This document shows positions 1,944 to 30,552 of a stretch of DNA of 40,027 nucleotides, one piece after another. Source of the stretch: Ignavibacteria bacterium (GTDB taxonomy: Bacteria; Bacteroidota; Ignavibacteria; Ignavibacteriales; SURF-24). The DNA lies in contig JAAXKQ010000014.1 in NCBI GenBank assembly GCA_025612245.1, positions 1 to 40,027 on the forward strand, written 5' to 3'. Numbering within the stretch: the first letter of the stretch is position 1; every line of letters starts with the position of its first letter. The notes beneath the pieces are model-generated. The model was given only the letters and a program-made list of their open reading frames with translations, was not told the origin of the DNA and made no database searches. Both the position numbers and the translations under genes were made by a program.

Positions 1944-1971
1944 GCTGCCCGAAAGAGGGAAGTTTTTAGTC

Positions 1972-2010
1972 AGCCGGATACAAAAAATGTCTTTTTGTAC
2001 CCGGCTTTTT
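1972..2010 (+). terminator. Rho-independent terminator after phoU
   Basis: A hairpin pairs AGCCGG.TACAAAAA (1972-1986) with TTTTTGTACCCGGCT (1992-2006) with one mismatch and a five-base loop. It is followed by a T run to 2011 on the plus strand. Read on the minus strand it lacks a good T run, so it mainly serves phoU, though it may also slow transcripts leaving the convergent pst operon. Confidence 0.8.
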
Positions 2011-2041
2011 TGGTCAGATGGATCTGATCACTAATACTTTT

Positions 2042-3573: not shown

Positions 3574-3595
3574 TCAGATTTTACTCTCTTCCTAA

Positions 3596-4432
3596 CTATC
3601 CTCTCCTGGCGATGAAACGGTTCATTAGCCAGTAAGCTGTAAGGTTAATAATCAAGACCGCGATGATTAAGGTTGCCGCAGTGCCGTATGCGTTTTCCTG
3701 CGAAATGCCTTCACGCGCAAGAATGTAAAAATGTACTGCCATTGTGCGCACAGAGTCGAATGCCGTAGTCGGAATTCTTAAGGATGATCCCGCGGTAAAA
3801 ATTACAGCCGCGGTCTCACCTATTGAGCGCCCTATTGAAAGCATGACTCCTGTAACAATGCCCGGAAGGGCATTTGGCAGAATTACTTTTTTTACGGTCT
3901 GCCAGCCCGATGCCCCGAGCGAGAAACTGACTTCCCTGTAAACCTTTGGCACCGCGCGGATTGCTTCTTCTGAAGTGCGTATAATTGTCGGAAGCACCAT
4001 CACGGCAAGCGTCAGGCTTCCGGCAAGAATTGACCATCCCATCTGAAGCGTGATAACGAAAAATATGTAGCCGAAAAGCCCGAATATAATTGAAGGTATC
4101 CCGGCAAGGCAGTCGGTGCCGAACCTGATAACCTTTGTCAGTGTTGTCTCCTTTGTATATTCGCTTAGGTATACAGAAGTAAAAACACCCAGGGGAGTTG
4201 CAATAAGAAGCGCCACAACGGGAAGAATAATTGTTCCTATAATTGTGGGGAATATACCGCCCGCACGCCCCAGGTCCCGTGGCTTGCTGCTGAGGAACTG
4301 CAGGTTAACTACGGGCAGGCCTTTTTCAAGTATGAATATTATTATGAATGCCAGTATGAGCAGTACTAAGATAGTAGCTCCGCCAAGAATTATTACCGCG
4401 CCTTTCTGTGTGTGCCTTGGATTTATTCTCAT
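3596..4432 (-). CDS. pstA: phosphate ABC transporter permease PstA (system 1)
   Basis: A 278-residue inner-membrane permease with about six helices. It carries the ATPase-coupling EAA loop typical of PstA (YREVSFSLGASGWQTVKKVILP, near residues 165-186) followed by the family's GRSIGETAAV. It pairs with PstC to form the phosphate channel. Its ATG overlaps the pstC stop by four bases (4429-4432), the usual sign of translational coupling. Length and motifs are normal. A separate second PstA lies at 12464-13309. Confidence 0.95.
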   Translation of the reverse strand: MRINPRHTQKGAVIILGGATILVLLILAFIIIFILEKGLPVVNLQFLSSKPRDLGRAGGIFPTIIGTIILPVVALLIATPLGVFTSVYLSEYTKETTLTKVIRFGTDCLAGIPSIIFGLFGYIFFVITLQMGWSILAGSLTLAVMVLPTIIRTSEEAIRAVPKVYREVSFSLGASGWQTVKKVILPNALPGIVTGVMLSIGRSIGETAAVIFTAGSSLRIPTTAFDSVRTMAVHFYILAREGISQENAYGTAATLIIAVLIINLTAYWLMNRFIARRG

Positions 4433-5286
4433 CTTTTCGACGTCCTTTTCCTGAGTGCAACGCTTGCTATTGAGTTAAGTATTATAATGCCAACAAAAAG
4501 AACCACACCGGTTGCAAAGAGTGCCTGCCGGTGCATTCCCGTAGCATAACTCATTTCGAGAGCAATGTTAGCCGTAAGTGTCCTTACGGAGTCAAGCGCC
4601 GAATGAGGAATGTTTACCGAGTTTCCTGCAACCATTATTACAGCCATCGTTTCTCCTACGGCACGCCCAAGCCCAAGTATTATGCTTGCAATTATGCCCG
4701 ACTTTGAAGCCTTAATGGTTATCATGTGTATTGTCTGCCACGTAGTGGCACCGAGTGCAAGTGAGCCTTCGCGGTAGCTCCTGGGTACAGCCATAATGGA
4801 ATCGATGCTGATACTGATCACCGTAGGCAGGATCATGATTCCGAGAATTATGGAACCCGCAAGGAGTGAAAGGCCGGGACCTCCGAAGTAACTCCTTATA
4901 AAAGGAGCCAGAACCATTACTCCAATAAATCCGTAAACAACGGAAGGAATTGCAGCAAGGAGTTCTATTGTGGGCTTTACTACCTTCATCATGGGACGTG
5001 GAGCATACTCGCTTAAGAAAATGGCCACCGCAACGCCAAGCGGTGCACCTGTTATCATTGCACCGAATGTTACCCAGAGTGATGCGGTTATCATCGGGAA
5101 TATGCCGAACTTGCCTGCTGCCGGGTTCCAGTCGGATGATAAAAGAAAATCCTTTAAGCCATACCGGAATATAAACGGAAGGCCTTCGTTTATTATAAAA
5201 AGTGTGATCAACAAGAGTGCTGAAATAGCGGAAAAAGCTACCGTCATTAAAATTCGCCTGACACCTTTTTCACCAACAAGTTTCAT
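4429..5286 (-). CDS. pstC: phosphate ABC transporter permease PstC (system 1)
   Basis: A 285-residue inner-membrane permease of the PstC family, with an N-terminal helix and five more in the binding-protein-dependent transport domain. The EAA loop (YREGSLALGATTWQTIH) and the conserved GRAVGETMAVIMVAGN are intact. The start at 5286 has an AGGAAA ribosome site. It lies 81 bases after pstS and overlaps pstA. Together they form an asymmetric PstC-PstA channel, which fits the asymmetric ATPase pair encoded downstream. Confidence 0.95.
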   Translation of the reverse strand: MKLVGEKGVRRILMTVAFSAISALLLITLFIINEGLPFIFRYGLKDFLLSSDWNPAAGKFGIFPMITASLWVTFGAMITGAPLGVAVAIFLSEYAPRPMMKVVKPTIELLAAIPSVVYGFIGVMVLAPFIRSYFGGPGLSLLAGSIILGIMILPTVISISIDSIMAVPRSYREGSLALGATTWQTIHMITIKASKSGIIASIILGLGRAVGETMAVIMVAGNSVNIPHSALDSVRTLTANIALEMSYATGMHRQALFATGVVLFVGIIILNSIASVALRKRTSKR

Positions 5287-5367
5287 TAAATTTCCTGAAA
5301 TGTATTAAGCATAATATAAATTCTTCTCTACCCTATCCTTTCACCAGCTTGTGAAACTTTTCTGATA

Positions 5368-6165
5368 TTACGACTTGGCAGGCAATAGCCCGTTGTCTTT
5401 TATTGTCTTCTGGCCTTCGGGAGAAAGTACATAATCGATAAAGTTTTTTATTTCGCCCTGAATGTTTCCTTTGACAAGGAGAAATATCGGCCTAGAGAGT
5501 TTATACGTTCCGTTTACAATGTTTTCCACGGAGCTTTGTATTCCGTCGAGTGTAAGCGGCTTTACCTTTTCATTGATCATTCCGTGCGAAAGGTAGCTCA
5601 CTGCGTTTGGATCGTTGGAAACAGTTTCTCGTATTGTGCCGTTGGAATCCTGAATGAGGGCGTCTTTCTTCAGCTGTATGCTGCCGATAATCTTCTCAAA
5701 AGATGACCTTGTTCCTGAACCGGCTTCCCTTGAGACGACGGTAATCGGGGCGTCGTTTCCGCCAAGCTGTTTCCAGTTGGTTATCTTGCCGTTAAATATG
5801 TCCCGCACCTGTTCGGTTGTAAGGTTTGTTATAGGGTTCTTCGGGTTAACAACTATCGCAACACCATCCCTTGCTACAATTACAGGGGTCAATCCTTTAG
5901 CCTCATCCGGCAGCTGGACCATGTCGGCCATCCCGATCTGTGCTGCTCCAGAGTTAGCGGACTGGATCCCAACGGCTGACCCCCCGCCCTGTACTGTTAT
6001 GTTTACGCCGTTATGCGACTCCATATACTGTTCTGCAAGCCTTTCAGCAAAAGGCTGAAACGCTGTCGACCCGGCAAGTGTAACTGAAGTAGCCGACTTA
6101 CCGCACCCAAAAGCTGCAATGGATGCCACGAACACAATAGAAGCAATGACTGCTTTTTTTAACAT
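5368..6165 (-). CDS. pstS: phosphate-binding lipoprotein PstS (system 1)
   Basis: A 265-residue periplasmic substrate-binding protein. A hydrophobic signal ends in a lipobox-like AAFGC, with the cysteine at residue 21, so it is probably a membrane-anchored lipoprotein. Phosphate-pocket motifs of the short PstS type are clear: AGSTAFQPFAE, GGGSAVGIQ and SREAGSGTRSSFE. A GGAG ribosome site precedes the ATG at 6165. It heads the pstS-C-A-B-B operon and sits downstream of a PHO-box-like promoter (6326-6370). It differs in length and type from the second PstS at 10408, so the two systems may differ in affinity or use. Confidence 0.95.
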   Translation of the reverse strand: MLKKAVIASIVFVASIAAFGCGKSATSVTLAGSTAFQPFAERLAEQYMESHNGVNITVQGGGSAVGIQSANSGAAQIGMADMVQLPDEAKGLTPVIVARDGVAIVVNPKNPITNLTTEQVRDIFNGKITNWKQLGGNDAPITVVSREAGSGTRSSFEKIIGSIQLKKDALIQDSNGTIRETVSNDPNAVSYLSHGMINEKVKPLTLDGIQSSVENIVNGTYKLSRPIFLLVKGNIQGEIKNFIDYVLSPEGQKTIKDNGLLPAKS

Positions 6166-6325
6166 TTATTTCTCCAATAAGATTGACGAGTATTTTAACT
6201 TCATGAGCGCTTTATGCTTTTTCCATGTACCCGATTTTTTTATTTCATCGGGAATAAACTCCGGATGGCAGACTTAACATTCACGTAATTTACATTAATA
6301 AAATTAAGCAAATGGAAATTCGTTT

Positions 6326-6370
6326 AATATAGGGGAAACAAAACTTAACAATTTGTTAACATTGACTTAA
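6326..6370 (-). promoter_or_regulatory. PHO-box-like promoter of pstS operon 1
   Basis: On the minus strand TTAAGT (6370-6365), TTAACA (6359-6354) and TTAAGT (6348-6343) follow each other at 11-bp steps. A -10-like TATATT (6331-6326) follows 11 bases after the last unit. The central GTTAAC is palindromic, so a plus-strand reading (TTAACA at 6345 and 6356, TTAAAA at 6367) is equally periodic; the -10 position favours the minus direction. A further isolated TTAACA at 6274-6279 lies in the leader. Confidence 0.65.
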
Positions 6371-6376
6371 AAAGGG

Positions 6377-6419
6377 CAAAAAGTGCCTTTATGGCCGGTT
6401 TTGTGGGCCATAGTGCACT
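6377..6419 (-). terminator. Rho-independent terminator after the response regulator
   Basis: Read on the minus strand, AGTGC (6419-6415) and GGCC-containing arms fold on ATGGCC and GCACT (6386-6382) with a small internal loop, then reach five T residues (6381-6377). On the plus strand the perfect inner stem is TATGGCC 6390-6396 with GGCCATA 6406-6412. It separates the phosphoesterase-regulator unit from the pst operon promoter immediately beyond. Confidence 0.7.
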
Positions 6420-6469
6420 CTTAGAAGGGAAGACTTTTGAAGTATTCTTCTCTGGCCGGCTCATGCATT

Positions 6470-7186
6470 TTAACTGTGTACTCCCGGGGCATTCTCAGTA
6501 TCTCTTATACGGTAGCCAACACCTTTAATCGTCTCTATCAAATCCGAGTGTTTCCCAAGTTTCTCTCGTATTTTTCTAATATGCACGTCAATGGCCCTTT
6601 CGGTTATATAGGAATCCTCACCCCAGATTTCATTTAATATTGACTCACGGTTCATTACTCTGCCCGGCTTCAATGCAATATAGGTTAATATTTCAAATTC
6701 TTTTTTCAAAAAATGTATATTCACCCCGTCAACCTTAGCCTCAAATTTCTCCCTGTCAATTTCCAGGGGGCCCAGTATTATTGTGGTTTTGCCCTTATTT
6801 TCATCATCCTGCGCGTTGTCCTTGCGCCTGAGATTTGCCCTGATACGTGCAATTAGTTTCTTTGGCGAGATCGGTTTGGTAATGAAATCGTCTGCCCCTA
6901 GTTCAAGTCCTTTAACCTCATCTGACTCGGCAGACTTTGCGGTAAGCAATATTACTGGAATATGAAGCGTGAGCTTGCTCTGGCGAATCTTCCTACATAC
7001 CTCGTAGCCATCCATAACCGGCATCATTACGTCCAGTATTATCAGGTCCGGCATCTCCAGGATCTTCTCCATCGCCTCCAGGCCGTTATTGGCACTGATA
7101 ACTTCATAGCCTACCTGTTCAATATTATACTGCAGTAATTCAATGATATCTTTTTCATCATCCACAAGCAATATCTTACTTTTCAT
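6470..7186 (-). CDS. OmpR/PhoB-family response regulator
   Basis: A 238-residue two-component regulator. The receiver domain (about 1-120) has the acidic pair Asp9-Asp10, phosphoacceptor Asp52 (LIILDVMMP) and the conserved lysine in DDFITKP. The C-terminal winged helix (about 135-232) has the PhoB/PhoP-like recognition stretch TERAIDVHIRKIREKLG and ends GYRI. The location between two Pst systems and the repeated TTAACA boxes make it the likely PhoB/PhoP of this organism. No histidine kinase is encoded next to it or anywhere in the window, which is unusual for phoB. It is co-transcribed with the phosphoesterase upstream (38-base gap). OmpR family is certain; the PhoB role is inferred. Confidence 0.9.
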   Translation of the reverse strand: MKSKILLVDDEKDIIELLQYNIEQVGYEVISANNGLEAMEKILEMPDLIILDVMMPVMDGYEVCRKIRQSKLTLHIPVILLTAKSAESDEVKGLELGADDFITKPISPKKLIARIRANLRRKDNAQDDENKGKTTIILGPLEIDREKFEAKVDGVNIHFLKKEFEILTYIALKPGRVMNRESILNEIWGEDSYITERAIDVHIRKIREKLGKHSDLIETIKGVGYRIRDTENAPGVHS

Positions 7187-7224
7187 TCTTCATGCCTTTC
7201 TTCTTTTATTTCATGATGTTCGCG

Positions 7225-8181
7225 TTAAAATCCTGCGGCCTCATGAAAATCATTTCTTCTGGAATTTGTTGCTAAAATTTCAGAAAAACCATACGGAGAC
7301 TTCAAGGTTTTTCTATCGGGCAGTTTTATGTTCTTCGTGATGATTGAATTTGCACGTTCAATTCTTACTTCATTATAGCTTATTTTTCCTGGACGGCTTG
7401 TGCTGAAAGTCTCGCCTGCATTCATACACATAATCCCCTTCTTAAGGTAACCTGCTGATTCATGAACGTGCCCGTGAAGTATGAGCTTTACATCGTATCT
7501 TGACAGGAAATTCAGGAGCCTTTTTCTTCCGCGCAGTTTCATTGCCTCATTCTCAATCTTTGCCCATAGCCTGCTTTCGCCTGAAAGAGCATAGAACGGA
7601 GTTTTGTAGAGGTGATGATGTATGAGAACGACTGCTGGTTTTTCGGAATATTTACCGGAATTGAAAATCCTGAACAGGCCGGAGGCTTGCTCTTCTGAAA
7701 TTCTCCCCTTTGAGGCAAAGAAGTTCTTCAGCCTGGAATATTCGCTGATTGAGTTGATTCCGATTAGAACAACCTCCCCAAGGTCTTTTGCATAAGGGAA
7801 AAGATCCGGACCGGGCGAGTAAACGCCATCAAAGGTCTCGCGGAAATATTCCCCAAACTCCATCACCTTTCTCTTGTAATTAGTTTTGATGCACTTTCCC
7901 GGAAAACCCGCTATATCCTCCACAAATTGTATCCCGCCATAAACATCATGGTTGCCTATTACTACGGAGAGTTTATCCGGTCTTAACAGGTCAAATTCTT
8001 CCAGAAGGTTCCTTATTAGCATGAACTCCTTTTCCAATCCGTTCTCGGTTATATCGCCTGTAATTACAACGTGATCGAAGTTGTTTTCTGATATATGCTT
8101 TAGTAGCCTGCGCATCTTTTTTATATTCCTGAAGTTACGCCTTGTACAGATATGGAGATCCGATATATGAGCTATTTTCAT
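7225..8181 (-). CDS. cytoplasmic calcineurin-like metallophosphoesterase
   Basis: A 318-residue protein with the whole metallophosphoesterase metal-site series: D8-x-H10 (MKIAHISDLH), GDITENG, GNHD, HHH and GHVH. It resembles the class III cyclic-nucleotide/CpdA-like branch. The substrate is unknown, and there is no signal peptide, so it acts inside the cell. The open frame extends to 8223, but the ATG at 8181 begins the usual MKIAHISDLH and has AGGAA six bases upstream. The longer version would run into the promoter repeats. It is the first gene of a two-gene unit with the response regulator, behind its own PHO-box-like promoter, which suggests a role in phosphate scavenging or a nucleotide signal. 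Confidence 0.9.
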   Translation of the reverse strand: MKIAHISDLHICTRRNFRNIKKMRRLLKHISENNFDHVVITGDITENGLEKEFMLIRNLLEEFDLLRPDKLSVVIGNHDVYGGIQFVEDIAGFPGKCIKTNYKRKVMEFGEYFRETFDGVYSPGPDLFPYAKDLGEVVLIGINSISEYSRLKNFFASKGRISEEQASGLFRIFNSGKYSEKPAVVLIHHHLYKTPFYALSGESRLWAKIENEAMKLRGRKRLLNFLSRYDVKLILHGHVHESAGYLKKGIMCMNAGETFSTSRPGKISYNEVRIERANSIITKNIKLPDRKTLKSPYGFSEILATNSRRNDFHEAAGF

Positions 8182-8208
8182 TGATTCCTGTTTTATTTGT
8201 TTTTTAGT

Positions 8209-8262
8209 AAAATAGAAATCCAATGTTAAGTTATTGTGAATTTAATGTTACCTCTGTGTTAA
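8209..8262 (-). promoter_or_regulatory. PHO-box-like promoter of the phosphoesterase-regulator unit
   Basis: Four hexamers at exact 11-bp steps read on the minus strand as TTAACA (8262-8257), GTAACA (8251-8246), TTCACA (8240-8235) and TTAACA (8229-8224). A -10-like TATTTT (8214-8209) lies nine bases beyond the last one. The gene starts 28 bases further on. If the downstream regulator binds here, its own expression is autoregulated. Confidence 0.7.
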
Positions 8263-8270
8263 ATCTTAAC

Positions 8271-9035
8271 TCAGCCGAACCTGCCCGTAATGTATTCCTC
8301 GGTTTTCTTTATTGACGGCTTTGTAAACATTTTTTTTGTTTCTCCGTATTCAATTAGCTCGCCCATGTAAAAGAACGCCGTATAGTCGCTTACGCGCGAA
8401 GCCTGCTGCATGTTGTGTGTAACTATTACAATTGTGTAGTTATGCTTCAGTTCACTGAGGAGCTCTTCAATCTTTGCCGTTGAAATTGGGTCCAGTGCGC
8501 TAGCCGGTTCATCCAGCAAGATTATCTCCGGCTCCACGGCAAGAGCCCTTGCAATACAGAGCCTCTGCTGCTGTCCTCCAGAAAGGCTGAGTGCATTTTC
8601 ATTTAGCCTGTCCTTTACTTCGTCCCATATTGCAGCCTGCCTTAACGTTCTTTCAACAATTTCGTTTAACGACTTCCTGTCCCTTATGCCGTTCAGCTTT
8701 GGGCCGAAGACAAGGTTATCGAATATTGATTTCGGGAAAAGGTTCGACTTCTGGAAAACCATTCCGACTTTTCTTCTGAGTTCAACAACATCCACGTTCC
8801 GAGCGTAAATATTAGTGCCGTTAATTATTACTTCCCCATGAATGGTTACGTTTCCTATCAGGTCGTTCATCCTGTTGAGCGTCCTAAGAAATGTTGATTT
8901 CCCGCACCCGGAGGGACCTATAAATGCAGTAATATGGTTTGAATATATATCAAGCGATATATTCTTAAGCGCCTGCTTCTGCCCGTAGAACAGATCCAGA
9001 CTGCTGGTTTGGACCTCAATTTTTTTTTCTTTCAT
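8271..9035 (-). CDS. pstB: phosphate ABC transporter ATPase PstB (canonical)
   Basis: A 254-residue PstB with every catalytic motif intact: Walker [10 protein letters not shown] (40-48), Q-loop MVFQKSN, signature [13 protein letters not shown], Walker B IILLDEP, D-loop SALDP and H-loop VTHN. It can therefore work as a homodimer, unlike the pair at 2042-3573. It is divergent from the porin-pstS-pstC-pstA unit, which has no ATPase of its own. The simplest reading is that it drives that second system. Its own promoter carries two PHO-box-like repeats (9111-9127). It could also support the first Pst system. Confidence 0.95.
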
Positions 9036-9094
9036 AAAGTTCTTATCATCCCGGAATTTTATTTTGGTATTATTGCTCCTATTAAATTAAGATA

Positions 9095-9127
9095 ATTTTA
9101 GTTCTCCGTGTGTTAAGTTATTGTTAA
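9095..9127 (-). promoter_or_regulatory. PHO-box-like promoter of pstB3
   Basis: On the minus strand TTAACA appears at 9127-9122 and 9116-9111, 11 bp apart. A -10-like TAAAAT (9100-9095) lies ten bases beyond. The leader to the ATG at 9035 is about 55 bases. Confidence 0.6.
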
Positions 9128-9190
9128 TTAGACAAATCCCAACGTTCATTTCACCCCCGTAAATAAAGGTCATTTATATTTATCCCTCAT

Positions 9191-9244
9191 TTAACAATTT
9201 CTTAACACTAAGTTAATATACCCTTAACACGTCTTTTCTAGTAT
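9191..9244 (+). promoter_or_regulatory. PHO-box-like promoter of porin-pstS2-pstC2-pstA2
   Basis: TTAACA (9191-9196), TTAACA (9202-9207), TTAATA (9213-9218) and TTAACA (9224-9229) follow at exact 11-bp steps. A -10-like TAGTAT (9239-9244) lies nine bases after the last. This is the cleanest of the five boxes. The rest of the divergent region (9036-9330) holds the opposing pstB3 promoter and nothing else that I recognise. Confidence 0.75.
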
Positions 9245-9330
9245 TACTATATCTTGAATGCGTCAATAATTTTTGACTGTCAAAGGCTTAGGTGCCTTTA
9301 ACACATTCTAAAACTTAAAATGGGATAATC

Positions 9331-10374
9331 ATGAAAAAAATATTTCTGTTTGCAATACTCGTTCTTGCTATAATGGACCCTGCATTCGCACAGGAAAAAA
9401 GCGCTCCCAGATTGAGCGGACTTATGTTCGGCGATTACTTTTATAATATTGACCAGAAAGATTCTTCAAAGAAGGACCTTAACGGCTTTCAGTTCAGGAG
9501 GATCTATATAACTACGGATTACACTGTTTCGGAATCCTTCGATGCAAGGTTCCGCCTTGAGGCCGACCAGTCGGCCTCTTCACTTACCTCCGGCGGCAAA
9601 CTCGGAGTGATGGTTAAGGATGCATATCTGAAATGGAAAAACATTTTCAGCGGAAGTGACCTTTATTTTGGCATTTCACCCAACCCCGAAATCGAAACAT
9701 CTGAATCCTTCTGGGGCTACAGGGCGCTTGAAAAAACCATTACAGACTTAAACGGAGCCGTCTCTTCAAGAGACTTTGGCGTGGATCTAAGAGGAAAATT
9801 TGATGAGGCGGGAGTAGTAAGATACTGGGTTAAGATAGGTAATAATTCCGGTAATGCCCCCGAAGCAAATAAATACAAGCGCTTCTACGGCTTTCTGCAG
9901 TTTGTGCCCTTAAGCTTCTTCCAGTTCTCAGTCTATGGCGACTACGCTTCATACGCTCCTAAAACTGACGCTTTAAGTAAAGAGCTGAAGAAAAACAATG
10001 CCCTTACCGCAGCCCTTATGATGAACTTCTTCCAAAAGGATGTATATTCAACCGGAATTGAAGCTTTTTATAAAACTCAGCAAAACAATTTTGCTCCCAC
10101 AGTATCAAGTCCGCTTGAATCACAAAATGGCTACGGTATTTCCGCATACGCTTGGATGAAGCTTGCCGGGAAGATCCGCCTTGTAGCACGGTACGACAGG
10201 TACGTCCCCAATAAGGATCTGGACAGAAGCGACAGGACGGACCTTATACTTGGCGCCATTGACTTCCAGGTCGACAAAAATGTCAGCCTGATGCCTAACA
10301 TGGAATCTGTTTCTTACTCTGGCCTTAAAGCAAAAGATCTTGTCGGAAGAGTGACGTTCTCTTACCAGTTCTAA
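9331..10374 (+). CDS. outer-membrane beta-barrel porin, probably for phosphate
   Basis: A 347-residue protein with a Sec signal (cleavage after AFA, about residue 20), alternating beta-strand segments with aromatic girdles, and a C-terminal phenylalanine (VTFSYQF) as expected for BAM-assembled barrels. The region after the signal (LSGLMFGDYFYNI, FQFRRIYITTDYTVSESFDARFRLE) resembles the phosphate-selective OprP/OprO-type porins. The specificity is inferred mainly from the operon: pstS2 begins 33 bases later, and a four-unit PHO-box-like promoter precedes it. It would let phosphate or phosphorylated compounds through the outer membrane under starvation. Confidence 0.8.
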   Translation: MKKIFLFAILVLAIMDPAFAQEKSAPRLSGLMFGDYFYNIDQKDSSKKDLNGFQFRRIYITTDYTVSESFDARFRLEADQSASSLTSGGKLGVMVKDAYLKWKNIFSGSDLYFGISPNPEIETSESFWGYRALEKTITDLNGAVSSRDFGVDLRGKFDEAGVVRYWVKIGNNSGNAPEANKYKRFYGFLQFVPLSFFQFSVYGDYASYAPKTDALSKELKKNNALTAALMMNFFQKDVYSTGIEAFYKTQQNNFAPTVSSPLESQNGYGISAYAWMKLAGKIRLVARYDRYVPNKDLDRSDRTDLILGAIDFQVDKNVSLMPNMESVSYSGLKAKDLVGRVTFSYQF

Positions 10375-10407
10375 TTCACTTAAGTACAATTAAAAAAGGA
10401 AAACACA

Positions 10408-11433
10408 ATGAAATTTAAATTTTTCGTAATACTAGGCATAATAATGGTCTCATCTGTTCTCAATGCCCAGATGAAGCTCAATGGCGCAGGGGCTACATTC
10501 CCCTACGTGATATATTCCAAATGGTTCGACGTTTATCATCAGAAAACGGGCATTCAGTTCAACTATCAGTCAATTGGAAGCGGCGGCGGAATAAAGCAGG
10601 TGATTGAAGGCACCGTAGATTTCGGAGCCTCCGACGCACCGATGACCGACCAACAGCTAAAGGAAGCCCAGTCTAAACGCGGCACCGAAATCCTTCACAT
10701 TCCTACCGTAATGGGCGCTGTTGTAGTTACCTATAACCTGCCGCAGACAGGCAAGGGATTAAAACTTACGCCTGAGGTGCTGACTGACATCTTCCTTGGG
10801 AAAGTCAAAAAGTGGAACGACCCCAGGATCACCTCACTTAACAAGGGGAAAAACCTCCCGGATAAAGCCATCTTCGTCGCCCACCGCTCAGACGGCAGCG
10901 GAACTACCAACATCTTTACCGGTTACCTTTCAAAAGTAAGTAATGAATGGAAAAACAAGGTAGGTCAGGGTACTTCTGTCAACTGGCCCGTAGGCCTTGG
11001 CGGCAAGGGGAATGAGGGAGTTGCGGGACTTGTAAAGCAGACCCAGGGTGCAATCGGTTACGTGGAGCTGGCCTATGCCGTACAAAACGGGCTCCCGTAT
11101 GCTGCACTTAAAAATAAGGCTGGAAACTTCGTGGAGCCTACTTTTGCCTCCGTTTCACAGGCTGCTGCAGGTTTTATTAAAAATATGCCGGCAGACCTTA
11201 GAGTTGAAATTACAAACGCCGGCGGAAAGGATTCCTACCCTATCTCGGCATTTACATGGCTCCTGGTTTATAAAAATATGAAAGATAAAGGTAAAGCAAA
11301 GGCAATTTCAGACTTCCTCAGGTGGGCTGTTACAGAGGGACAGAAGTTTGCTCCCGGCCTTTATTACGCACCACTTCCAAAGGAAGTTGTAAAGCTTGAT
11401 GAAAAGAAAATTTCAAACATTACGGTAAAGTAA
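10408..11433 (+). CDS. pstS: phosphate-binding protein PstS (system 2)
   Basis: A 341-residue periplasmic phosphate-binding protein of the E. coli PstS type, longer than system 1's. It has a Sec signal ending near VLNAQ (about residue 20) with no lipobox, then LNGAGATFPYVIYSKWF, the pocket SIGSGGGIKQ, DFGASDAPM and HRSDGSGTTNIFT. It is therefore probably soluble in the periplasm. The start has an AAGGA ribosome site. Only two bases separate it from pstC2. It is the second of four genes behind the 9191-9244 promoter. Confidence 0.95.
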   Translation: MKFKFFVILGIIMVSSVLNAQMKLNGAGATFPYVIYSKWFDVYHQKTGIQFNYQSIGSGGGIKQVIEGTVDFGASDAPMTDQQLKEAQSKRGTEILHIPTVMGAVVVTYNLPQTGKGLKLTPEVLTDIFLGKVKKWNDPRITSLNKGKNLPDKAIFVAHRSDGSGTTNIFTGYLSKVSNEWKNKVGQGTSVNWPVGLGGKGNEGVAGLVKQTQGAIGYVELAYAVQNGLPYAALKNKAGNFVEPTFASVSQAAAGFIKNMPADLRVEITNAGGKDSYPISAFTWLLVYKNMKDKGKAKAISDFLRWAVTEGQKFAPGLYYAPLPKEVVKLDEKKISNITVK

Positions 11434-11435
11434 AT

Positions 11436-12461
11436 ATGGACATAAAAAACAGGGACCGGGATTTGGCCTTAGGGCAAAGCAGGACCAGTCTCTTTTCCAT
11501 TAAAAGTATGTACAATACCCTGAGGCGAATGGCAGGCAGCTTTTTCTCGGGCAAAAACTTTGGTGACCTGGTCTTTGAGAATTTGACCAGGTCTTTTGCC
11601 TTCTTTCTGCTTGTGCTTGTCGTAATAATGGGCTACCAGATGCTCACGCAGTCAATGCCCTCGATTGAAAGGTTCGGCTGGGGATTCATTACTTCCGATA
11701 CTTGGGACCCCGTGCAGGAAAAGTTCGGGGCCCTGCCTTTCATATTCGGAACACTTTTCTCCTCGTTACTTGCCCTCTTAATCTCCGTTACGTTGAGTAT
11801 CGGCACTGCAATTTTCCTCTCTGAGTTTGCTCCGCCATGGCTGGAGAAAATCATATCTATGATGGTCGAACTCCTTGCAGCCATTCCAAGCATCGTCTAT
11901 GGCCTTTTCGGAATTTTTGTCCTGGCCCCATTCCTGAGAGATTCCGCTGAACCCTGGCTCTCCGGGCATTTTGCATTCATTCCTATTTTTGACGGTGCCC
12001 CTTACGGTTTTGGAATGATTGCGGCAGTACTGATTCTTACAATAATGATACTCCCCATCATAACTTCCATTTCCAGAGATATCATGAAATCGATTCCACA
12101 GGCTCAAAGAGAAGCCGCCTTTGCACTCGGGGCTACAAAGTGGGAGGTCGTAACAATTGTCCTTTCGGGAGAAAGGTCCGGCATTCTTGGTGCCGCGCTT
12201 TTGGGACTCGGGCGAGCCGTGGGGGAAACAATGGCAGTAACAATGGTAATTGGAAACCGCCCCGAAATTTCCTTCGCACTCTTCGACCCGGGTTACACAA
12301 TGGCCAGCGTGCTGGCAAACGAGTTCAGCGAGGCCACCTCGCAGCTTTATACAAGTGCCCTTATTGAAATTGCCCTGCTGTTATTCATAATGACATTTCT
12401 TCTGAATGCAGTTGCACGGCTTGTAGTCTGGAGCGTAACAAGAAAATACTCAAAGGTATAG
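11436..12461 (+). CDS. pstC: phosphate ABC transporter permease PstC (system 2)
   Basis: A 341-residue permease, longer than system 1's PstC because of about 45 extra N-terminal residues and an inserted periplasmic loop (APFLRDSAEPWLSGHFAF...). The EAA loop (QREAAFALGATKWEVVTIVL) and GRAVGETMAVTMVIGN are intact. Two-base gaps on each side place it in one unit with pstS2 and pstA2. Start chosen at the ATG at 11436, right after the pstS2 stop. Confidence 0.95.
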   Translation: MDIKNRDRDLALGQSRTSLFSIKSMYNTLRRMAGSFFSGKNFGDLVFENLTRSFAFFLLVLVVIMGYQMLTQSMPSIERFGWGFITSDTWDPVQEKFGALPFIFGTLFSSLLALLISVTLSIGTAIFLSEFAPPWLEKIISMMVELLAAIPSIVYGLFGIFVLAPFLRDSAEPWLSGHFAFIPIFDGAPYGFGMIAAVLILTIMILPIITSISRDIMKSIPQAQREAAFALGATKWEVVTIVLSGERSGILGAALLGLGRAVGETMAVTMVIGNRPEISFALFDPGYTMASVLANEFSEATSQLYTSALIEIALLLFIMTFLLNAVARLVVWSVTRKYSKV

Positions 12462-12463
12462 AC

Positions 12464-13309
12464 ATGACTGGAAAACTTAACTCAAACCTACGGAAGTTCA
12501 AAAGCTTAATTATGACTTTATTCAGCATTGTATGCGCCCTGGTGGTCATAGTTCCGCTTTTTATAATTCTCTTTTATACCTTAAAACAGGGCGTAAGTTC
12601 TATCAGCTGGTCCTTTTTTACAGAAATGCCGAAGCCTGCCGGTGAGCTGGGAGGCGGCATGGCAAATGCTCTCATGGGGACGGCCATTTTAATCGGACTT
12701 GGGAGCCTCATCGGAATTCCTGTCGGCTTATTCTCAGGCATTTATCTTTCGGAAGGGAATTCCTCATTATTTGCAAGAAGTGTCAGGTTTTTAACCGAGG
12801 TCCTAAACGGAATTCCATCCATCGTAATTGGTGTTGTGGCATACATTTTAATTGTAATTCCTATGAGGAGGTTTTCAGCCCTGGCCGGTGGCTTCGCATT
12901 GGGCATTCTGATGATTCCTCTTATTACAAGAACTACAGAGGAGATGCTGAGGCTTGTGCCTGAAAGTTACCGCGAAGGTGCCCTGGCGCTCGGTGCCCCG
13001 CGCTGGAAGGCTACACTTTTTGTCGTTTTACCCGCCGCATTTAAGGGCATATTTACGGGTATACTGCTCTCAATTGCAAGAGCCGCCGGAGAAACGGCTC
13101 CATTACTCTTCACGGCCCTCGGCAATAGATTCTGGTCGACAAGGCTTGATGAACCGATTGCCTCGCTTACGGTTTTTATTTACGACTACTCCAGGGCTCC
13201 CTTTGAGGACTGGAACCGCCAGGCCTGGGCGGCTGCCCTGGTTCTGATACTCCTTGTCACACTGATTAATGTAACCTTTAGAATCTTCACCAGGGAAAAG
13301 ACCCCGTAG
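12464..13309 (+). CDS. pstA: phosphate ABC transporter permease PstA (system 2)
   Basis: A 281-residue permease of the PstA family with six likely helices. It has the EAA loop YREGALALGAPRWKATLFVVLP and the conserved ARAAGETAPLLFTALG. It is the last gene of the porin-pstS-pstC-pstA unit. No pstB follows it; the terminator at 13371-13406 closes the unit. The divergent canonical pstB3 at 8271 is the likely partner. Confidence 0.95.
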   Translation: MTGKLNSNLRKFKSLIMTLFSIVCALVVIVPLFIILFYTLKQGVSSISWSFFTEMPKPAGELGGGMANALMGTAILIGLGSLIGIPVGLFSGIYLSEGNSSLFARSVRFLTEVLNGIPSIVIGVVAYILIVIPMRRFSALAGGFALGILMIPLITRTTEEMLRLVPESYREGALALGAPRWKATLFVVLPAAFKGIFTGILLSIARAAGETAPLLFTALGNRFWSTRLDEPIASLTVFIYDYSRAPFEDWNRQAWAAALVLILLVTLINVTFRIFTREKTP

Positions 13310-16279: not shown

Positions 16280-17356
16280 CTAGTAAATCGCCTCCCTTAC
16301 CCTGGCACTTATATAGTCCATCACCCAGACTACAAAGGCAATCATTAGGACAATTAGGCCCACCTCATTCCACCTGGCAAGCCCCTGATACTGCATTAGC
16401 ATCGTGCCTATACCGCCGCCGCCAACAAGGCCAATGACCGTTGCCATCCTTACGTTTATATCCCACCTGTATATTGTAAAGGAAAGAAACGGTAGCACAA
16501 TCTGCGGCACAACTGCATACCAGACAACCTGTATCCTGTTCGCACCCGTTGCAACCATGGCCTCGACAGGCCCTTCCTCAATTCCTTCTATTGCCTCGGA
16601 ATAAAGCTTTGCGTTTGACGCTACCGAGTGCACAAGAAGGGCTATCATGCCCGCATAAGGACCAATACCCACCCAGACCGAGAAGATGATAGCCCAGATC
16701 AATGGCTCTATTGAACGCACAAAATTAAATACAATTCTTAATATATAGTAAATGGCAAAGGTAATCTTATTCTCCCTCATCAGGTTACGCGCTGTAAAAA
16801 AGCTTACCAGGAACGTAGGAGGAATGGATAGAAGCGTCGCAATTAAGGCCAGATAAATTGTTTCAATTATTGCAGAAAGTGCGTCATCAAAAATCCCCAT
16901 ATTCGGATGAAACATGGCGCTGAAGATCCTGTTAGCCCCGTGGATACCCTCGGCACTGAAAAGATCTACAATTGATATCTTTGTCACCACCCAGCCGGCA
17001 ATAAATGTCAGGTCAAAAAGAAGCCACGCAAAAATCTCCACGTTCCACTTTGTAATGTTATTATCCCTGTGGAGCTTAAAAAGCCTTGTCGCCAGAGAAG
17101 TCCTTGTAAATGCCCAGGAGGCTCCCAGCACTACACTTACAATAAAAACCGCACCAAGCTGAGGCCAGCCGAAGGGCACCTCACGCAGGTCAAGTATGAG
17201 TTTATAATAAATAACCCTCTGCAGCAGTATCAGCGCATAGAAGACCAGGAATACATCCAGAAGGACTGCCTTTACAAAATTATTCCTGTTTTGCCATTCC
17301 TTTCCTCTCATAAATAGTTCCCTGGGCTCAATATTTTCAGCTTCAGTTGTCTTCAT
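16280..17356 (-). CDS. phnE: PhnE-like ABC transporter permease
   Basis: A 358-residue inner-membrane permease of the phosphonate/phosphite (PhnE/PtxC) family. The transport domain is from about residue 155 on, with the EAA loop EAMVATGANRIQVVWYAVVP and the family's GLVGGGGIGTML. It is about 80-100 residues longer than most PhnE because of an N-terminal region with three extra hydrophobic segments (about 28-50, 68-86 and 108-127). It is the last gene in line after the PhnD-like and PhnC-like genes, with an 82-base gap. The substrate is not proven; no C-P lyase, phosphonatase or phosphite dehydrogenase genes are in the window. Confidence 0.9.
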   Translation of the reverse strand: MKTTEAENIEPRELFMRGKEWQNRNNFVKAVLLDVFLVFYALILLQRVIYYKLILDLREVPFGWPQLGAVFIVSVVLGASWAFTRTSLATRLFKLHRDNNITKWNVEIFAWLLFDLTFIAGWVVTKISIVDLFSAEGIHGANRIFSAMFHPNMGIFDDALSAIIETIYLALIATLLSIPPTFLVSFFTARNLMRENKITFAIYYILRIVFNFVRSIEPLIWAIIFSVWVGIGPYAGMIALLVHSVASNAKLYSEAIEGIEEGPVEAMVATGANRIQVVWYAVVPQIVLPFLSFTIYRWDINVRMATVIGLVGGGGIGTMLMQYQGLARWNEVGLIVLMIAFVVWVMDYISARVREAIY

Positions 17357-17438
17357 TTAATTTCCGGCATCCTATTTCCCTTTTTGGGGCTTCTAGATTT
17401 ACTGACTTTTTAGATGTTTTCATGGGGCTTATCTTTGC

Positions 17439-18128
17439 TTACCTGATTTCCACTTCCTCGGCCTCTTCGCCATAAATGGTCTTAAACCATTCCTTATTTA
17501 TATCCTTCGGATCGCCCTGATAGATAATGCCGCCCTGCCTTAAGGCAATGACACGCGTGGCATATCGTCTTACAAGGCTCAGGAAATGAAGGCTGCAGAT
17601 TATGGTTGTTCCAAGTTCATTGTTTATCTTCTCAAAATACTGCATAAGACTGCGTGCAATTGCAACCCTCTGCTGCTGCCCACCACTTAAGGCATCAGCC
17701 CTTTCTTTTGCTTTCTCTTCAATGCCAACGGTCCTGAGCGCCTGAAAGGCTTCCTCATATACCTCAGGAGAAAACCTTTCCAGAACCGAATCTACAGTGC
17801 TTAAAGATGCCAGTCGGCCCGTTATTACGTTTGTCAAAACAGATCTTCTTTTTACAAGATTAAAGTTCTGGAATACCATGGCTATCTGCTGGTGCACATG
17901 CCTGAGCTCCTCGCCCTTGACGTGAGTAATATCCTGCCCCATAAATTCAATTGTACCGGATGTAGGCTCAAGAAGACGGTTAATGCACCTTAGAAGCGTG
18001 CTCTTGCCTGAACCGCTGAGACCTATTACAACCAGGAACTCCCCTTCCCGTACTTCAAAACTGACCCCCTTTAACGCGTGAGTGCCCGACTTATAAACTT
18101 TATGTAAATTCTGGAGCTTCAATAGCAT
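17439..18128 (-). CDS. phnC: PhnC-like ABC ATPase lacking Walker B and the D-loop
   Basis: A 229-residue ATPase of the PhnC family. Walker A (GLSGSGKST, 36-44), Q-loop (MVFQNFN), signature ([13 protein letters not shown], 147-159) and H-loop His181 are present. The segment that should lie between the signature helix and the next helix is absent: the protein goes directly from SLMQ (163) to YFEKIN (164), at bases 17639/17640. Compared with E. coli PhnC about 24 residues are missing, including the ILADEP Walker B, the catalytic glutamate and the SLDP D-loop. The frame continues cleanly. As written it should not hydrolyse ATP. It may be a dying gene, a sequence error, or a subunit that relies on another ATPase. 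A GAGG ribosome site precedes the ATG. Confidence 0.85.
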   Translation of the reverse strand: MLLKLQNLHKVYKSGTHALKGVSFEVREGEFLVVIGLSGSGKSTLLRCINRLLEPTSGTIEFMGQDITHVKGEELRHVHQQIAMVFQNFNLVKRRSVLTNVITGRLASLSTVDSVLERFSPEVYEEAFQALRTVGIEEKAKERADALSGGQQQRVAIARSLMQYFEKINNELGTTIICSLHFLSLVRRYATRVIALRQGGIIYQGDPKDINKEWFKTIYGEEAEEVEIR

Positions 18129-18231
18129 TTATTAAACCTCTTTTCCTTCCGCTTTATGCGGCACAGGAAGCATATATACTGCTTTCCTGGCATATCATTC
18201 TTCAATAAGCTCAACATTGGCCAAATCAAAA

Positions 18232-19158
18232 TTATTTTATCACCCCGCTTAATGAAATATTCTCTTCCTTCAGCATTTTTCTGAGTCCGTCATAATCACT
18301 GTCGCTGGTCTTCATCAGACCTGTAATGTCTGCAATTTCAAACATGGCCTTCCGCCCCTTTTCTGTAGATACAAATTTCAGGAATGCATTTACAATTTTC
18401 CTTTTCATCTCCTCGGGCATATCCTTCCTGAAGACATACGGATCGTTCGGAATTGCTTCTGTAAAACCAATGATCTTAACCTTCTTGACTACATCCGGGA
18501 ATTGCTGAAGAACCCTCATCCTGGCATCCATTACAAGTCCGGTCTTCGGGTTTGGAGCAGAATAGTACGTCGCCCCGGCATCCACCTGCTTCTGATAGAT
18601 CATTGTTACAACGTTATCATGCTTCATTGCAAAAACTTCCTCTGAAGGCTTTATCCCACGGCGAGAAAGCATTGCCTTGGGAAGAATGTAGCCTGAGGTT
18701 GATGATGGGTCGACATAAGCAATGCTTCTTCCATTTAAGTCGGCAAGGCTGTCGATTCCGGAATCGACGCGCGTGAGGAAGCACCCTTTGTAGGTGGTAT
18801 CACCTCCTTCACGCACTATCCTTAGCCTGGCCTCGGCGCCATACTTTTCGTGTGCCATCAGGTAAGAAAAAGTGTTGATTCCCGCAATATCGGCTTTCTT
18901 TGTGCCGAAAGCTTCCACAACAGCTATATAGCTCGTAGGAACTGCAGTTTCAAAGTAATAACCCGTTTCTTTTTCAAGAAACTCGACCAGCTCCTTTGCA
19001 CTGGAGGTAATCCTGTTGGCATCAAGGGCCGGGGTAAAATACAGCTTGACGGGGTTATTCTTAGTCCCAAGATCCCTCTTGTGGAGGTCATGATAGGATG
19101 AAATTGCCATAAAAACCAGGATCGGGGAAATATAAATTATATATTTAAATAGCTTCAT
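18232..19158 (-). CDS. phnD: PhnD-like phosphonate/phosphite-type substrate-binding protein
   Basis: A 308-residue binding protein with an N-terminal hydrophobic signal or anchor (about 5-20, no lipobox cysteine). The PhnD/PtxB family pattern follows: LYFTPALDANRI, YIAVVEAFGTKKADIAGINTFSY, LADLNGRSIAYVDPSSTSGY and NDPYVF. It delivers substrate to the PhnE-like permease. The family includes binders of phosphonates, phosphite, methylphosphonate and some phosphorylated or amine compounds, so the ligand is open. No good ribosome site is seen before the ATG at 19158. It lies 92 bases after the YjbQ-family gene on the same strand. No TTAACA repeats are found upstream, in contrast to the pst genes. 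Confidence 0.88.
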   Translation of the reverse strand: MKLFKYIIYISPILVFMAISSYHDLHKRDLGTKNNPVKLYFTPALDANRITSSAKELVEFLEKETGYYFETAVPTSYIAVVEAFGTKKADIAGINTFSYLMAHEKYGAEARLRIVREGGDTTYKGCFLTRVDSGIDSLADLNGRSIAYVDPSSTSGYILPKAMLSRRGIKPSEEVFAMKHDNVVTMIYQKQVDAGATYYSAPNPKTGLVMDARMRVLQQFPDVVKKVKIIGFTEAIPNDPYVFRKDMPEEMKRKIVNAFLKFVSTEKGRKAMFEIADITGLMKTSDSDYDGLRKMLKEENISLSGVIK

Positions 19159-23485: not shown

Positions 23486-26398
23486 TTGAAGAAAGTAACT
23501 TTGCTTTTGTTAATTTCAGGACTGATTCTGTCTTCATCCGTTAAAACAATATCTTCTGAAAATTCCGCTAAATATTTTTTTCATAAAACTGAATCCGGAC
23601 TGATGAAAAAAACTTCAGAAGCTTTAAGTCCTTATTCCGCATTCGACCTGAATAATGCAGACGTTCGCTGGGTCGAAAATACGCTTAACCATATGACACT
23701 TTATGAAAAATGCGCTCAAATGGTTATGCCCTGGGTCGAGGCGGAATTCATGAACGAGGACGACCCGAAATATAAAAGACTTGTCCACCTGGTAAGGGAC
23801 CTGAAGGTAGGGGGACTCATATTTTTTGAAGGCGACGTGATAAACCAGGTAATGCTGACAAATAAACTTCAGCGCCTTTCAGGGCTGCCGCTGCTTATAT
23901 CAGCCGATTATGAACGCGGCGTAGGAATGCGCCTTAAAGACGCGGTTGAGTTTCCCTATAACATGGCCGTAGCAGCTGCCGACGATACGGCGCTTACCTA
24001 TATGATGGGTAAGATCATCGGCCAGGAAACTCGCGCCATTGGTGTCCAGCAGAACTACGCCCCTATGGTAGACATAAATAACCACGCCCGTAACCCTATC
24101 ATTAATATCAGGTCTTATTCCGAGGATAAGGACATAATTGACCGCCACATGCTGGCATTTATGAAGGGCATGGAGGAAGAAAACGTCCTTACAACTGCTA
24201 AACACTTCCCGGGACACGGGGCAACAGACCTGGATTCGCACAGGGATCTGCCCCTTTTAAGCCAGAGCAGAAAATCGTTTGAAACCAACGACCTCGTGCC
24301 TTTTGAAAAAGCCATTTCTGCCGGAGTTAAATCCGTCATGGTCGGCCACCTGGAGGTCCCGGCTTATGAACCCAAACGCGGACTCCCGGCCACACTATCC
24401 AGGAATATTATCACAAAACTCCTCAAGGATCAGCTCGGTTTCAACGGACTCATTGTAACAGACGCCATGAATATGCACGGCCTGACAAAACACTTTAAGA
24501 GCGGGCCTGCCGCACTTAAGGCTGTACAGGCGGGAAACGACATCATACTCTTCCCTCCCGACGAATCCAAGGCAATTTCAGCCATCTATAACGCCGTTGA
24601 ATCCGGAAAGCTCAAAGAAAGCAGGATCGACTATAGCGTAAGAAAAATTCTGGCGGCAAAGAAATGGCTTCACCTCGATAACAACAGGTACGTCGATATA
24701 GACAGCGTCAGCCGCTCCTTAAACAGTAAGTCGCACATCCGCCTTGCACAGGATATTGCCGATAAATCCATTACATTGGTTAAGAACACGGCTTCACTGG
24801 TACCCGTTAACCCGGCAAATTATTCAAGCGTAGCCTGCATTACATTAAGCGACCTGAGCGCTCCGGCACCTTACTACTTTGAAAAGCTTGTAAAAGAAAG
24901 GTTCAATAACGTACGGCATGTCTCACTTGGAAAGACAAGCACCGGAAGGGAATTTAATGAGGCCATGGAAGCCGTCCGAAGTAGTGACCTGGTACTGGTT
25001 CCGATATTTGTAAAGGTTAAGGCTTTTACGGGCTCAATCGGCATGCCTGAAGAGGAAATTAAACTGGTAAAGGCTCTTTCGGAACTGAAAAAGCCGGTAA
25101 TTTTCATGAGCATGGGAAACCCTTACATTTTATCCAATTTCCCCGAAGCACCAAATTATCTCTGCAGCTATGGCGACCCGAAGGTCTCCCAGATTGCAAT
25201 GATGAAAGCTATTACCGGTGAAGTTGACATTACAGGCAAGCTCCCGATCTCAATACCCGATACCCCTTACAAAGTAGGCGACGGAATTCGTATGGAAAGT
25301 CAGACTCTTAAAGATATTCAGGCCGAAAGCGACTCGTCGTTTGACTTTTCAAAGGTGGATGAGGTAATGAACTCCGGACTATCGGATTCTGTATTCCCGG
25401 GCGCTGTTGCATATGTGGGCTATAAAGGAAAAGTAATCTATAAAAAAGCATTCGGCCATTATACCTACGGCCCGGGAGTACAGCCGATGGAAACGGATGC
25501 AATGTTCGACCTGGCATCTGTTTCGAAGGTAATAGGCACCACAACTGCAGCAATGCTCCTTTATGACGAGGGGAAACTTATACTCGATAAAAAAGTCTCA
25601 GACTATCTGCCAGACTTTGCAAACCACGGCAAGGAAAATATTACCATCAGGAACCTCCTCCTCCATAATGCCGGATTCCCGGCCGACAAGCCTTTTTACA
25701 AAATGTACAAGAATCACGACCAGGTTGCACAGGATATCATGAATACCAGCCTGGAATATCCGACGGGAACGAAATTTCTTTATAGCGACCTCAGCATGAT
25801 AACGCTACAGCTTGTAATTGAAAAGATTGCGGGAATGCCTCTGGACCGGTTCCTGAAGAAACGTGTCTTTGAACCACTTGGCATGTCGCACACTATGTAT
25901 AATCCACCAAAGAGCCTTTGGAATAAATGTGTTCCTACGGAGGTTGACAACTATTGGAGGATGGATACCGTCAGAGGCACCGTCCACGACGAGAATGCCG
26001 CAGCCATGGGAGGCGTTGCCGGACATGCAGGGCTGTTTTCTACGGCGGGCGACCTTTCGACATTTATGCAAATGATGCTTAACAAGGGGCGCTACGATGG
26101 AAAACAGCTAATCAAGCCTTCAACCGTGGAACTCTTTACCTCCAAAGTCTCTGAACAGAGCTCACGTGGACTCGGCTGGGATACTAAGGCTCCTACGGGC
26201 TCTTCAGCAGGAAGTCTTTTCAGCACAGAATCATTCGGACACACGGGCTTTACAGGCACGTCAGTCTGGGCAGATAAAACAAGGAATCTTTTTGTTGTAC
26301 TCCTTACAAACAGGGTTTTCCCAACGAGAAAAAACAATAAGATAATTAAGTTCCGCCCCCTTTTTCACGATGCAGTAATAAGGGCAATTTCCTATTAA
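23486..26398 (+). CDS. periplasmic NagZ-type GH3 glycosidase fused to a serine beta-lactamase-like hydrolase
   Basis: A 970-residue two-enzyme protein. Residues 1-20 form a Sec signal. The GH3 domain (about 50-400) has the NagZ motif KHFPGHGATDLDSH (239-252) and nucleophile Asp326 in VTDAMNM; a GH3 C-terminal-like domain follows to about 590. Residues about 615-965 are a class C beta-lactamase/DD-peptidase-like domain with S678-V-S-K681, YSD in place of the usual Y-x-N, and H919-T-G. NagZ cuts GlcNAc from anhydro-muropeptides; the second domain could act on the peptide or ester side. The start is TTG at 23486 with AGAGAGG five bases upstream. Such fusions are known in Bacteroidota. It completes the salvage cluster with the kinase and permease. 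Confidence 0.9.
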   Translation: MKKVTLLLLISGLILSSSVKTISSENSAKYFFHKTESGLMKKTSEALSPYSAFDLNNADVRWVENTLNHMTLYEKCAQMVMPWVEAEFMNEDDPKYKRLVHLVRDLKVGGLIFFEGDVINQVMLTNKLQRLSGLPLLISADYERGVGMRLKDAVEFPYNMAVAAADDTALTYMMGKIIGQETRAIGVQQNYAPMVDINNHARNPIINIRSYSEDKDIIDRHMLAFMKGMEEENVLTTAKHFPGHGATDLDSHRDLPLLSQSRKSFETNDLVPFEKAISAGVKSVMVGHLEVPAYEPKRGLPATLSRNIITKLLKDQLGFNGLIVTDAMNMHGLTKHFKSGPAALKAVQAGNDIILFPPDESKAISAIYNAVESGKLKESRIDYSVRKILAAKKWLHLDNNRYVDIDSVSRSLNSKSHIRLAQDIADKSITLVKNTASLVPVNPANYSSVACITLSDLSAPAPYYFEKLVKERFNNVRHVSLGKTSTGREFNEAMEAVRSSDLVLVPIFVKVKAFTGSIGMPEEEIKLVKALSELKKPVIFMSMGNPYILSNFPEAPNYLCSYGDPKVSQIAMMKAITGEVDITGKLPISIPDTPYKVGDGIRMESQTLKDIQAESDSSFDFSKVDEVMNSGLSDSVFPGAVAYVGYKGKVIYKKAFGHYTYGPGVQPMETDAMFDLASVSKVIGTTTAAMLLYDEGKLILDKKVSDYLPDFANHGKENITIRNLLLHNAGFPADKPFYKMYKNHDQVAQDIMNTSLEYPTGTKFLYSDLSMITLQLVIEKIAGMPLDRFLKKRVFEPLGMSHTMYNPPKSLWNKCVPTEVDNYWRMDTVRGTVHDENAAAMGGVAGHAGLFSTAGDLSTFMQMMLNKGRYDGKQLIKPSTVELFTSKVSEQSSRGLGWDTKAPTGSSAGSLFSTESFGHTGFTGTSVWADKTRNLFVVLLTNRVFPTRKNNKIIKFRPLFHDAVIRAISY

Positions 26399-29223: not shown

Positions 29224-30525
29224 TTACAAGAAGGAAAACGGACAGGGCGTAGACTGAACGAAACTCTTGTTGTTGTTTGCATTATCCAGTGCATTTTTCA
29301 ATGATTCCTGGTAAGTGCGGTATGGGCTGCCTGAGAGCGTCAAGCCGTGCAAACCCAATTCGGTATTTGCTTCAGTCATTAAATCGCCGATTGATGCAAA
29401 TCCAAGGCTGCTTGCGCTGTTTGTTCCCGGGGCATAGACTATAGCGTTACTGCTTACAAAACCGTTAAAAACATTTAATTCCATTGCCGTAAGCTGAGCA
29501 GAGAGCATGTATGCCATGTTTGTTGAATTTGCACTCAGCAGCCAGCTGCGGAAGTCACTGTAACCAGCGGGGTCAAATGGTGTCCCGTCTGCCTTGCGCA
29601 GATTTAAGGCAACCAGCATAGCAAGATCAGTGCTTCCAATCAAAGCCTGGCCGTTCCTGTTGGACCAGAAGCCCAGCGTCAGGCCTCCTCCAGCACCAAG
29701 GCAAACATTTCCGAATTCCACTGTCTTATTGTCCCCTGCTGCCAGCGATACGCTTTGAGTAACAGGTGTAGTATGAATCCAGTTGGTTTCCACCGGGTCA
29801 AACTCAAAGACCGTATAATCATCAGGCGCCAGGATGATGTCAATCGGAGTATAGCGGATAAGGTCGACATTATCATAAATCCTGAATTTCCAGCCGCTGA
29901 TAAGCTGCCCGTCATCATTTAAGCCGTTAACATTTGCGTCATAGAACTTTAGCACATTCAGCCGGGCTGTAGTTGGCGGGGTAGTTCCCCCGGTTACCTT
30001 GAAATTATCAGTTTTGCTGAGGCTTTCCTCAAAGCTGCTGGATGTGCTTACCCATACTTTATACTCTCCTCCCAGGTTTGGAGTGTCATCATAACCCGTT
30101 GAACCGTCACTTGCTTTTTGCAGAATATTCCAAAGCTGATAGCAGTTATCGAATTCCCCGTTTGTCACGTGTATCGGTGTTGGATTCGCCAAGCCGACGC
30201 TGGTGCCAAGTAGTGTGTTTCCGCTTGGGTCTGTAATCTTGCAATAGTAATTTCCATCGGGTAAACCCGCTGCTCCCGGGTGGTCCGGACCTCCATCAAG
30301 ATATACATCGGTCTTATTCTGGTAAATGTTGAGGTTTACTCCTGTGCAGTTTCCATCCGTAGTAAATATTGCCCCATAGACAGGGGTTACTGAAAGCGCG
30401 AGCTTTTGGGAAGTGTTTTTTTGAGGTGTCTGCTCGACCGGTTGAGGTTCTTTGCAGGAATACTGGAAAAGAACCGTCAGCAAAAGAAGTATCCCAACCG
30501 TAAGTTTACGTGTCAAGAGTCTCAT
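29224..30525 (-). CDS. secreted SdrD-like lipoprotein of unknown function
   Basis: A 433-residue exported protein. The signal ends near cysteine 24 (LFQYSC), a loose lipobox. The middle (about 185-290) has the SdrD-B-like pattern of a Ca2+-type surface-protein repeat (DANVNGLNDDGQLISGWKFRIYD ... VSLAAGDNKTVEFGNVCLG). The C-terminal third begins LTLGFWSNRNG, a short motif seen in many secreted proteins, and is otherwise unrecognised. The open frame reaches 30552, but the ATG at 30525 has AGGAGGAAA directly upstream and gives the clean signal peptide. Probably displayed on the cell surface; the role is unknown. Confidence 0.8.
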   Translation of the reverse strand: MRLLTRKLTVGILLLLTVLFQYSCKEPQPVEQTPQKNTSQKLALSVTPVYGAIFTTDGNCTGVNLNIYQNKTDVYLDGGPDHPGAAGLPDGNYYCKITDPSGNTLLGTSVGLANPTPIHVTNGEFDNCYQLWNILQKASDGSTGYDDTPNLGGEYKVWVSTSSSFEESLSKTDNFKVTGGTTPPTTARLNVLKFYDANVNGLNDDGQLISGWKFRIYDNVDLIRYTPIDIILAPDDYTVFEFDPVETNWIHTTPVTQSVSLAAGDNKTVEFGNVCLGAGGGLTLGFWSNRNGQALIGSTDLAMLVALNLRKADGTPFDPAGYSDFRSWLLSANSTNMAYMLSAQLTAMELNVFNGFVSSNAIVYAPGTNSASSLGFASIGDLMTEANTELGLHGLTLSGSPYRTYQESLKNALDNANNNKSFVQSTPCPFSFL

Positions 30526-30552
30526 AGTTTCCTCCTTCTGATTTTTAGACAT

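Follow-up and report, generated by a model that had tools for sequence, protein, structure and literature searches.

A phnC gene without Walker B and D-loop in an Ignavibacteria bacterium: a probable recent deletion between short direct repeats

In the 40,027-nt stretch of Ignavibacteria DNA analysed here (the window), a phnC gene lying between phnD and phnE encodes an ATPase shorter than its relatives. This raises the question whether the gene has really lost a part, by what event, and whether the PhnDCE importer could still work. The features considered are as follows.

16280..17356, minus strand: phnE permease, full length (family model and comparison with relatives)
17439..18128, minus strand: phnC with a 72-bp in-frame deletion, 229 aa (253 aa in the related genome G001), from the open reading frame, family model and orthologue alignment
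17586..17588, minus strand: H-loop His181, intact (translation and alignment)
17640..17647, minus strand: TTATGCAG, single copy remaining at the junction (two copies, 72 bp apart, in G001)
17676..17690, minus strand: ABC signature LSGGQ, residues 147-151, intact (translation and alignment)
17868..17870, minus strand: Q-loop Gln87, intact (translation and alignment)
18000..18023, minus strand: Walker A, residues 36-43 (GLSGSGKS), intact (translation and alignment)
18232..19158, minus strand: phnD-like substrate-binding protein, full length (family models and comparison with relatives)

The phnC frame is open throughout, with an ATG start and zero internal stops. The first-pass annotation had described an in-frame jump from SLMQ to YFEKIN with Walker B and the D-loop gone, and this was confirmed by the orthologue alignment; its estimate of about 24 missing residues became exactly 24 (72 bp). 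In the alignment with 35 homologues the gap follows SL(161) and precedes YFEKIN. The missing segment, which reads NPKLLLADEPVASLDPATSNSVMQ in many relatives, contains in orthologues LLLADEP (Walker B with the catalytic Glu) and SLDP (D-loop), and all three elements are absent from the window PhnC. Residues D171, E172, P173 and D178, in the numbering of L032, an intact relative used also as structural reference, are invariant across 35 aligned sequences. The window protein shares partners, sequence, Walker A, Q-loop, signature and H-loop with the PhnC of PhnCDE phosphonate/phosphite/phosphate importers (TIGR02315), and these four motifs had been correctly reported as preserved; it differs from that family in the deleted Walker B, catalytic Glu and D-loop. 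Its match to TIGR02315 is split in two (profile positions 1-162 and 184-243) and totals 267.3 bits, approximately 1 bit above the cut-off of 266.1. As the shortened protein exceeds the curated PhnC cut-off, family-model annotation could call it a normal PhnC.

Both flanking genes are full length, in agreement with the first-pass annotation. PhnE scored 250.2 bits, above its own family cut-off (216.7). The phnD-like neighbour scored 215.6 against TIGR01098, the phosphate/phosphite/phosphonate binding-protein subfamily (cut-off 112.05), and 147.6 against the PhnD model TIGR03431, which is under the cut-off of 261.1. A scan for promoters and terminators gave 7 and 5 sites vs. 8.1 and 5.3 expected and is thus uninformative.

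Among the genes compared with those of relatives, only that of the window has the short form. G001, the sole other same-genus genome among those compared, matches the window in gene order at this locus and encodes a 253-aa PhnC with 82% identity to the window protein over residues 1-164. A search of the order matched 39 of 164 genomes at E <= 1e-28, from which the genome itself and two distant ABC ATPases (G003, 43% identical; G099, 41% identical) were left out. In all 36 orthologues thus retained the first match ends at residue 163-166 within an open frame no shorter than 253 aa, and a separate match of the second half was found for each (for G004 in a separate search). A class sample gave matches in 75 of 391 genomes at E <= 1e-45; besides the genome itself, in each of the 74 others the first match stops at residue 163-167 and the frame is 253 aa or longer, and exclusion of the 20 already counted in the order left 54. 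Together these make 90 distinct orthologues, collected at thresholds which would miss those too diverged or too broken, while the unmatched genomes (125 of 164 in the order, 316 of 391 in the class) carry no information on the deletion. By DNA, Walker B (DEP) and the D-loop (LDP) are present in 90 of 90, with no gap in the segment and an aligned stretch without stop in every case. A deletion as a character of the clade was therefore rejected, as it was seen in none of the 90 other orthologues. The first-pass annotation held that relatives with the missing bases would make the gap an assembly or consensus error; such relatives were found, but their long form is not by itself proof of error, as it shows a lineage-specific deletion for which an 8-bp repeat supplies an ordinary mutational mechanism.

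In G001 the missing 72 bp sit between two 8-bp direct repeats, TTATGCAG, of which the window retains one, and this is the only direct repeat pair of at least 8 bp at 30-200 bp spacing in G001 phnC. The junction lies inside codons L161-Q163 (17640-17648), where both copies merge. By rough arithmetic there are about 10^5 combinations of start and length within this spacing, making it unlikely that a deletion fell on the repeat by chance; the flanking of the 72 bp by the gene's only such pair is the mark of a slipped-strand deletion. One copy left behind is the standard pattern after slipped mispairing or annealing between short direct repeats. The two copies encode conserved LMQ and VMQ, 24 residues apart and in the same codon register, so that the product would be in frame without any selection.

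The number of base pairs shared at the exact boundary varied among 36 distinct intact orthologues (from 55 loci after removal of duplicates; a set overlapping with, and not identical to, the 90): 8 bp in 7, 6 bp in 11, 5 bp in 1, 2 bp in 1, and 0 bp in 16. Among the 11 zero-bp cases with DNA inspected, the final repeat base differs (CAA/CAG) in eight, and other changes are responsible in three. The full 8-bp repeat in the window's own ancestor is presumed from G001, the shared stretch being below 8 bp in 29 of the 36 intact orthologues.

Taken together, we consider that the short gene is probably a genuine, very recent, repeat-mediated in-frame 72-bp deletion, that is, a loss-of-function allele of phnC. 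A replicating strand would have slipped, or annealed, between the two copies of TTATGCAG, removing one copy together with the intervening DNA, in which Walker B, the catalytic glutamate and the D-loop are encoded. Pseudogenes formed by deletion between short direct repeats likewise keep one copy and lose the intervening DNA, with both copies kept in a sister species, as in G001. Unlike these, the phnC event is in frame, and would consequently escape screening for stops or frameshifts.

As for the age of the lesion, over 132 phnC columns in which six outgroups show no variation we counted 6 changes in the window vs. 8 in G001; five positions were altered in both, leaving 1 vs. 3 unique changes, and with G004 as the outgroup the unique changes were 11 vs. 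13. Values of dN and dS against G001 were 0.121 and 1.873 for phnC (pairwise dN/dS approximately 0.06), 0.073 and 1.361 for phnD, and 0.099 and 1.372 for phnE. A rough Poisson bound leaves at most about 4% of the phnC branch without constraint, although with dS near saturation this bound is only indicative. The change counts and dN/dS fit a phnC under constraint until very recently, and an old pseudogene under relaxed selection is not supported by the counts. The absence of excess phnC changes relative to G001 means that the lesion is either very recent or absent from the organism's DNA. Recency would explain both the kept frame and the lack of further decay; selection or an artefact would do so too. 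For phnD the changes were even (8 vs. 7). For phnE they were 10 vs. 6 in invariant columns (unique 6 vs. 2) and 20 vs. 11 with the G004 outgroup, a small nominal excess; the neighbouring tetR tilts similarly toward the window lineage (11 vs. 5).

The main rival explanation is an artefact of assembly, amplification or consensus, or a minority strain variant taken into the consensus of a population carrying mainly the long gene. We regard it as unlikely, though it is the alternative that deserves most weight. The long form in all 90 orthologues counts for it, as does the undecayed rest of phnC, which is expected were the organism's real gene intact; template switching between short repeats is also possible during library amplification. 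On the other hand, an 8-bp repeat is shorter than assembler k-mers, and a collapse of the assembly graph would not be expected. The surrounding sequence also speaks against this reading: 36 of 38 window ORFs were matched in the corresponding 40 kb of G001, and the best matches of the 35 other than phnC each have at most 4 gap positions, vs. 24 in phnC. A region-wide loss of quality is thus not supported.

The two window frames without a match in the syntenic G001 stretch are 29224-30552 (442 aa), which gave no Pfam match at E <= 1e-4, and 38650-39666 (338 aa). At 23486-26398 a single 970-aa frame matches glycoside hydrolase family 3 domains and, after them, a beta-lactamase-type domain; it has a full-length match in G001.

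Nor was a second copy or a fragment of the missing part found in the genome, which also argues against an artefact. Searches of the 97%-complete genome with the window protein, the PhnC model and the G001 protein found no second PhnC, and only one locus passes the PhnC family cut-off. A 40-residue G001 query around the missing segment recovered no orphan copy of that segment from the genome, its best match being 50% identical and located in another ABC ATPase. An unlinked PhnC as the power source of the importer, as first suggested, hence finds no support in this genome.

Results of modelling were in line with the loss of function implied by the missing residues. AlphaFold2 gave a pLDDT of 82.4 and pTM of 0.68 for the short PhnC (36-sequence alignment) vs. 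91.8 and 0.89 for the intact relative L032 (35 sequences). Two core strands of the L032 model, E82-86 before the Q-loop and E167-171 with Walker B, have no counterpart in the short protein. As AlphaFold2 tests deletions poorly, the model does no more than support an expectation already set by the lost catalytic residues: ATP hydrolysis is not to be expected of a homodimeric ATPase that has neither Walker B nor the catalytic Glu. With a core beta strand and the residues for ATP hydrolysis missing, the 229-aa PhnC, and hence PhnDCE transport, should be dead, judging from the sequence and the predicted fold.

It could be asked whether, with the short PhnC dead, PhnDE is still driven by a different ATPase, for instance a PstB. 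Exactly three PstB pass the family cut-off, as many as first reported, all of them on this contig; phnD and phnE are full length, and some sugar importers are known to share ATPases. Yet intact phnD and phnE are explained equally well by recency, and no full-length match to another ABC ATPase encoded in the genome exceeds 40% identity with PhnC. We find such sharing very improbable, and its specific form, an active PhnDE driven by a neighbouring PstB or by a PstB/short-PhnC heterodimer, a shade more so; if true, the latter would be a case of phosphorus importers sharing an ATPase. Least probable of all is a short PhnC selected for a non-hydrolytic role (an ATP-binding stub or a regulator, for instance). 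Although reading frame, Walker A and signature persist, the short form occurs in 0 of 90 other orthologues, the predicted fold is disturbed, and the same-register repeat junction gives an in-frame event without selection.

The three PstB belong to a phosphate island at 1260-13309, a few kilobases from phnDCE and conserved in order in G001. It encodes PhoU, two Pst systems (three PstB, two PstA, two PstC and two PstS-type proteins), a PhoB-like regulator and a weak match to a phosphate porin.

A search for PhnJ found it in none of 59 genomes, the organism's own included, the control giving a signal in E. coli only; thus there is no sign of a C-P lyase that this PhnDCE could supply. A C-P lyase fed by the transporter was accordingly rejected as far as the PhnJ search reaches, i.e., for the own genome and all 59. 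PhnDCE-type importers such as that at 16280-19158 occur in genomes of this order in which no PhnJ was found (0 of 59).

In picocyanobacteria, PhnDCE without C-P lyase has been hypothesised to be a phosphate transporter (PMC10284923). That system resembles the one in the window in standing beside Pst in genomes without C-P lyase (here, PhnJ in 0 of 59), and differs from it in belonging to another phylum. If the picocyanobacterial role as phosphate transporter is shared, Pst could compensate for a lost PhnDCE. For the deletion considered probable here, the two nearby Pst systems, together with PhnJ not being found, may make the loss of PhnDCE cheap and tolerable.

The feature is real in the assembled sequence, and its explanation is an ordinary one, not a new kind of transporter. 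A literature search on ABC ATPases without Walker B as pseudogenes found no paper, and none of the titles listed by further searches dealt with this case. The locus provides a small, well-resolved example of the way in which short repeats can disable a gene in frame while the family-model cut-off is still passed. For metabolic predictions from this genome, PhnDCE uptake should not be counted as present without recourse to the reads.
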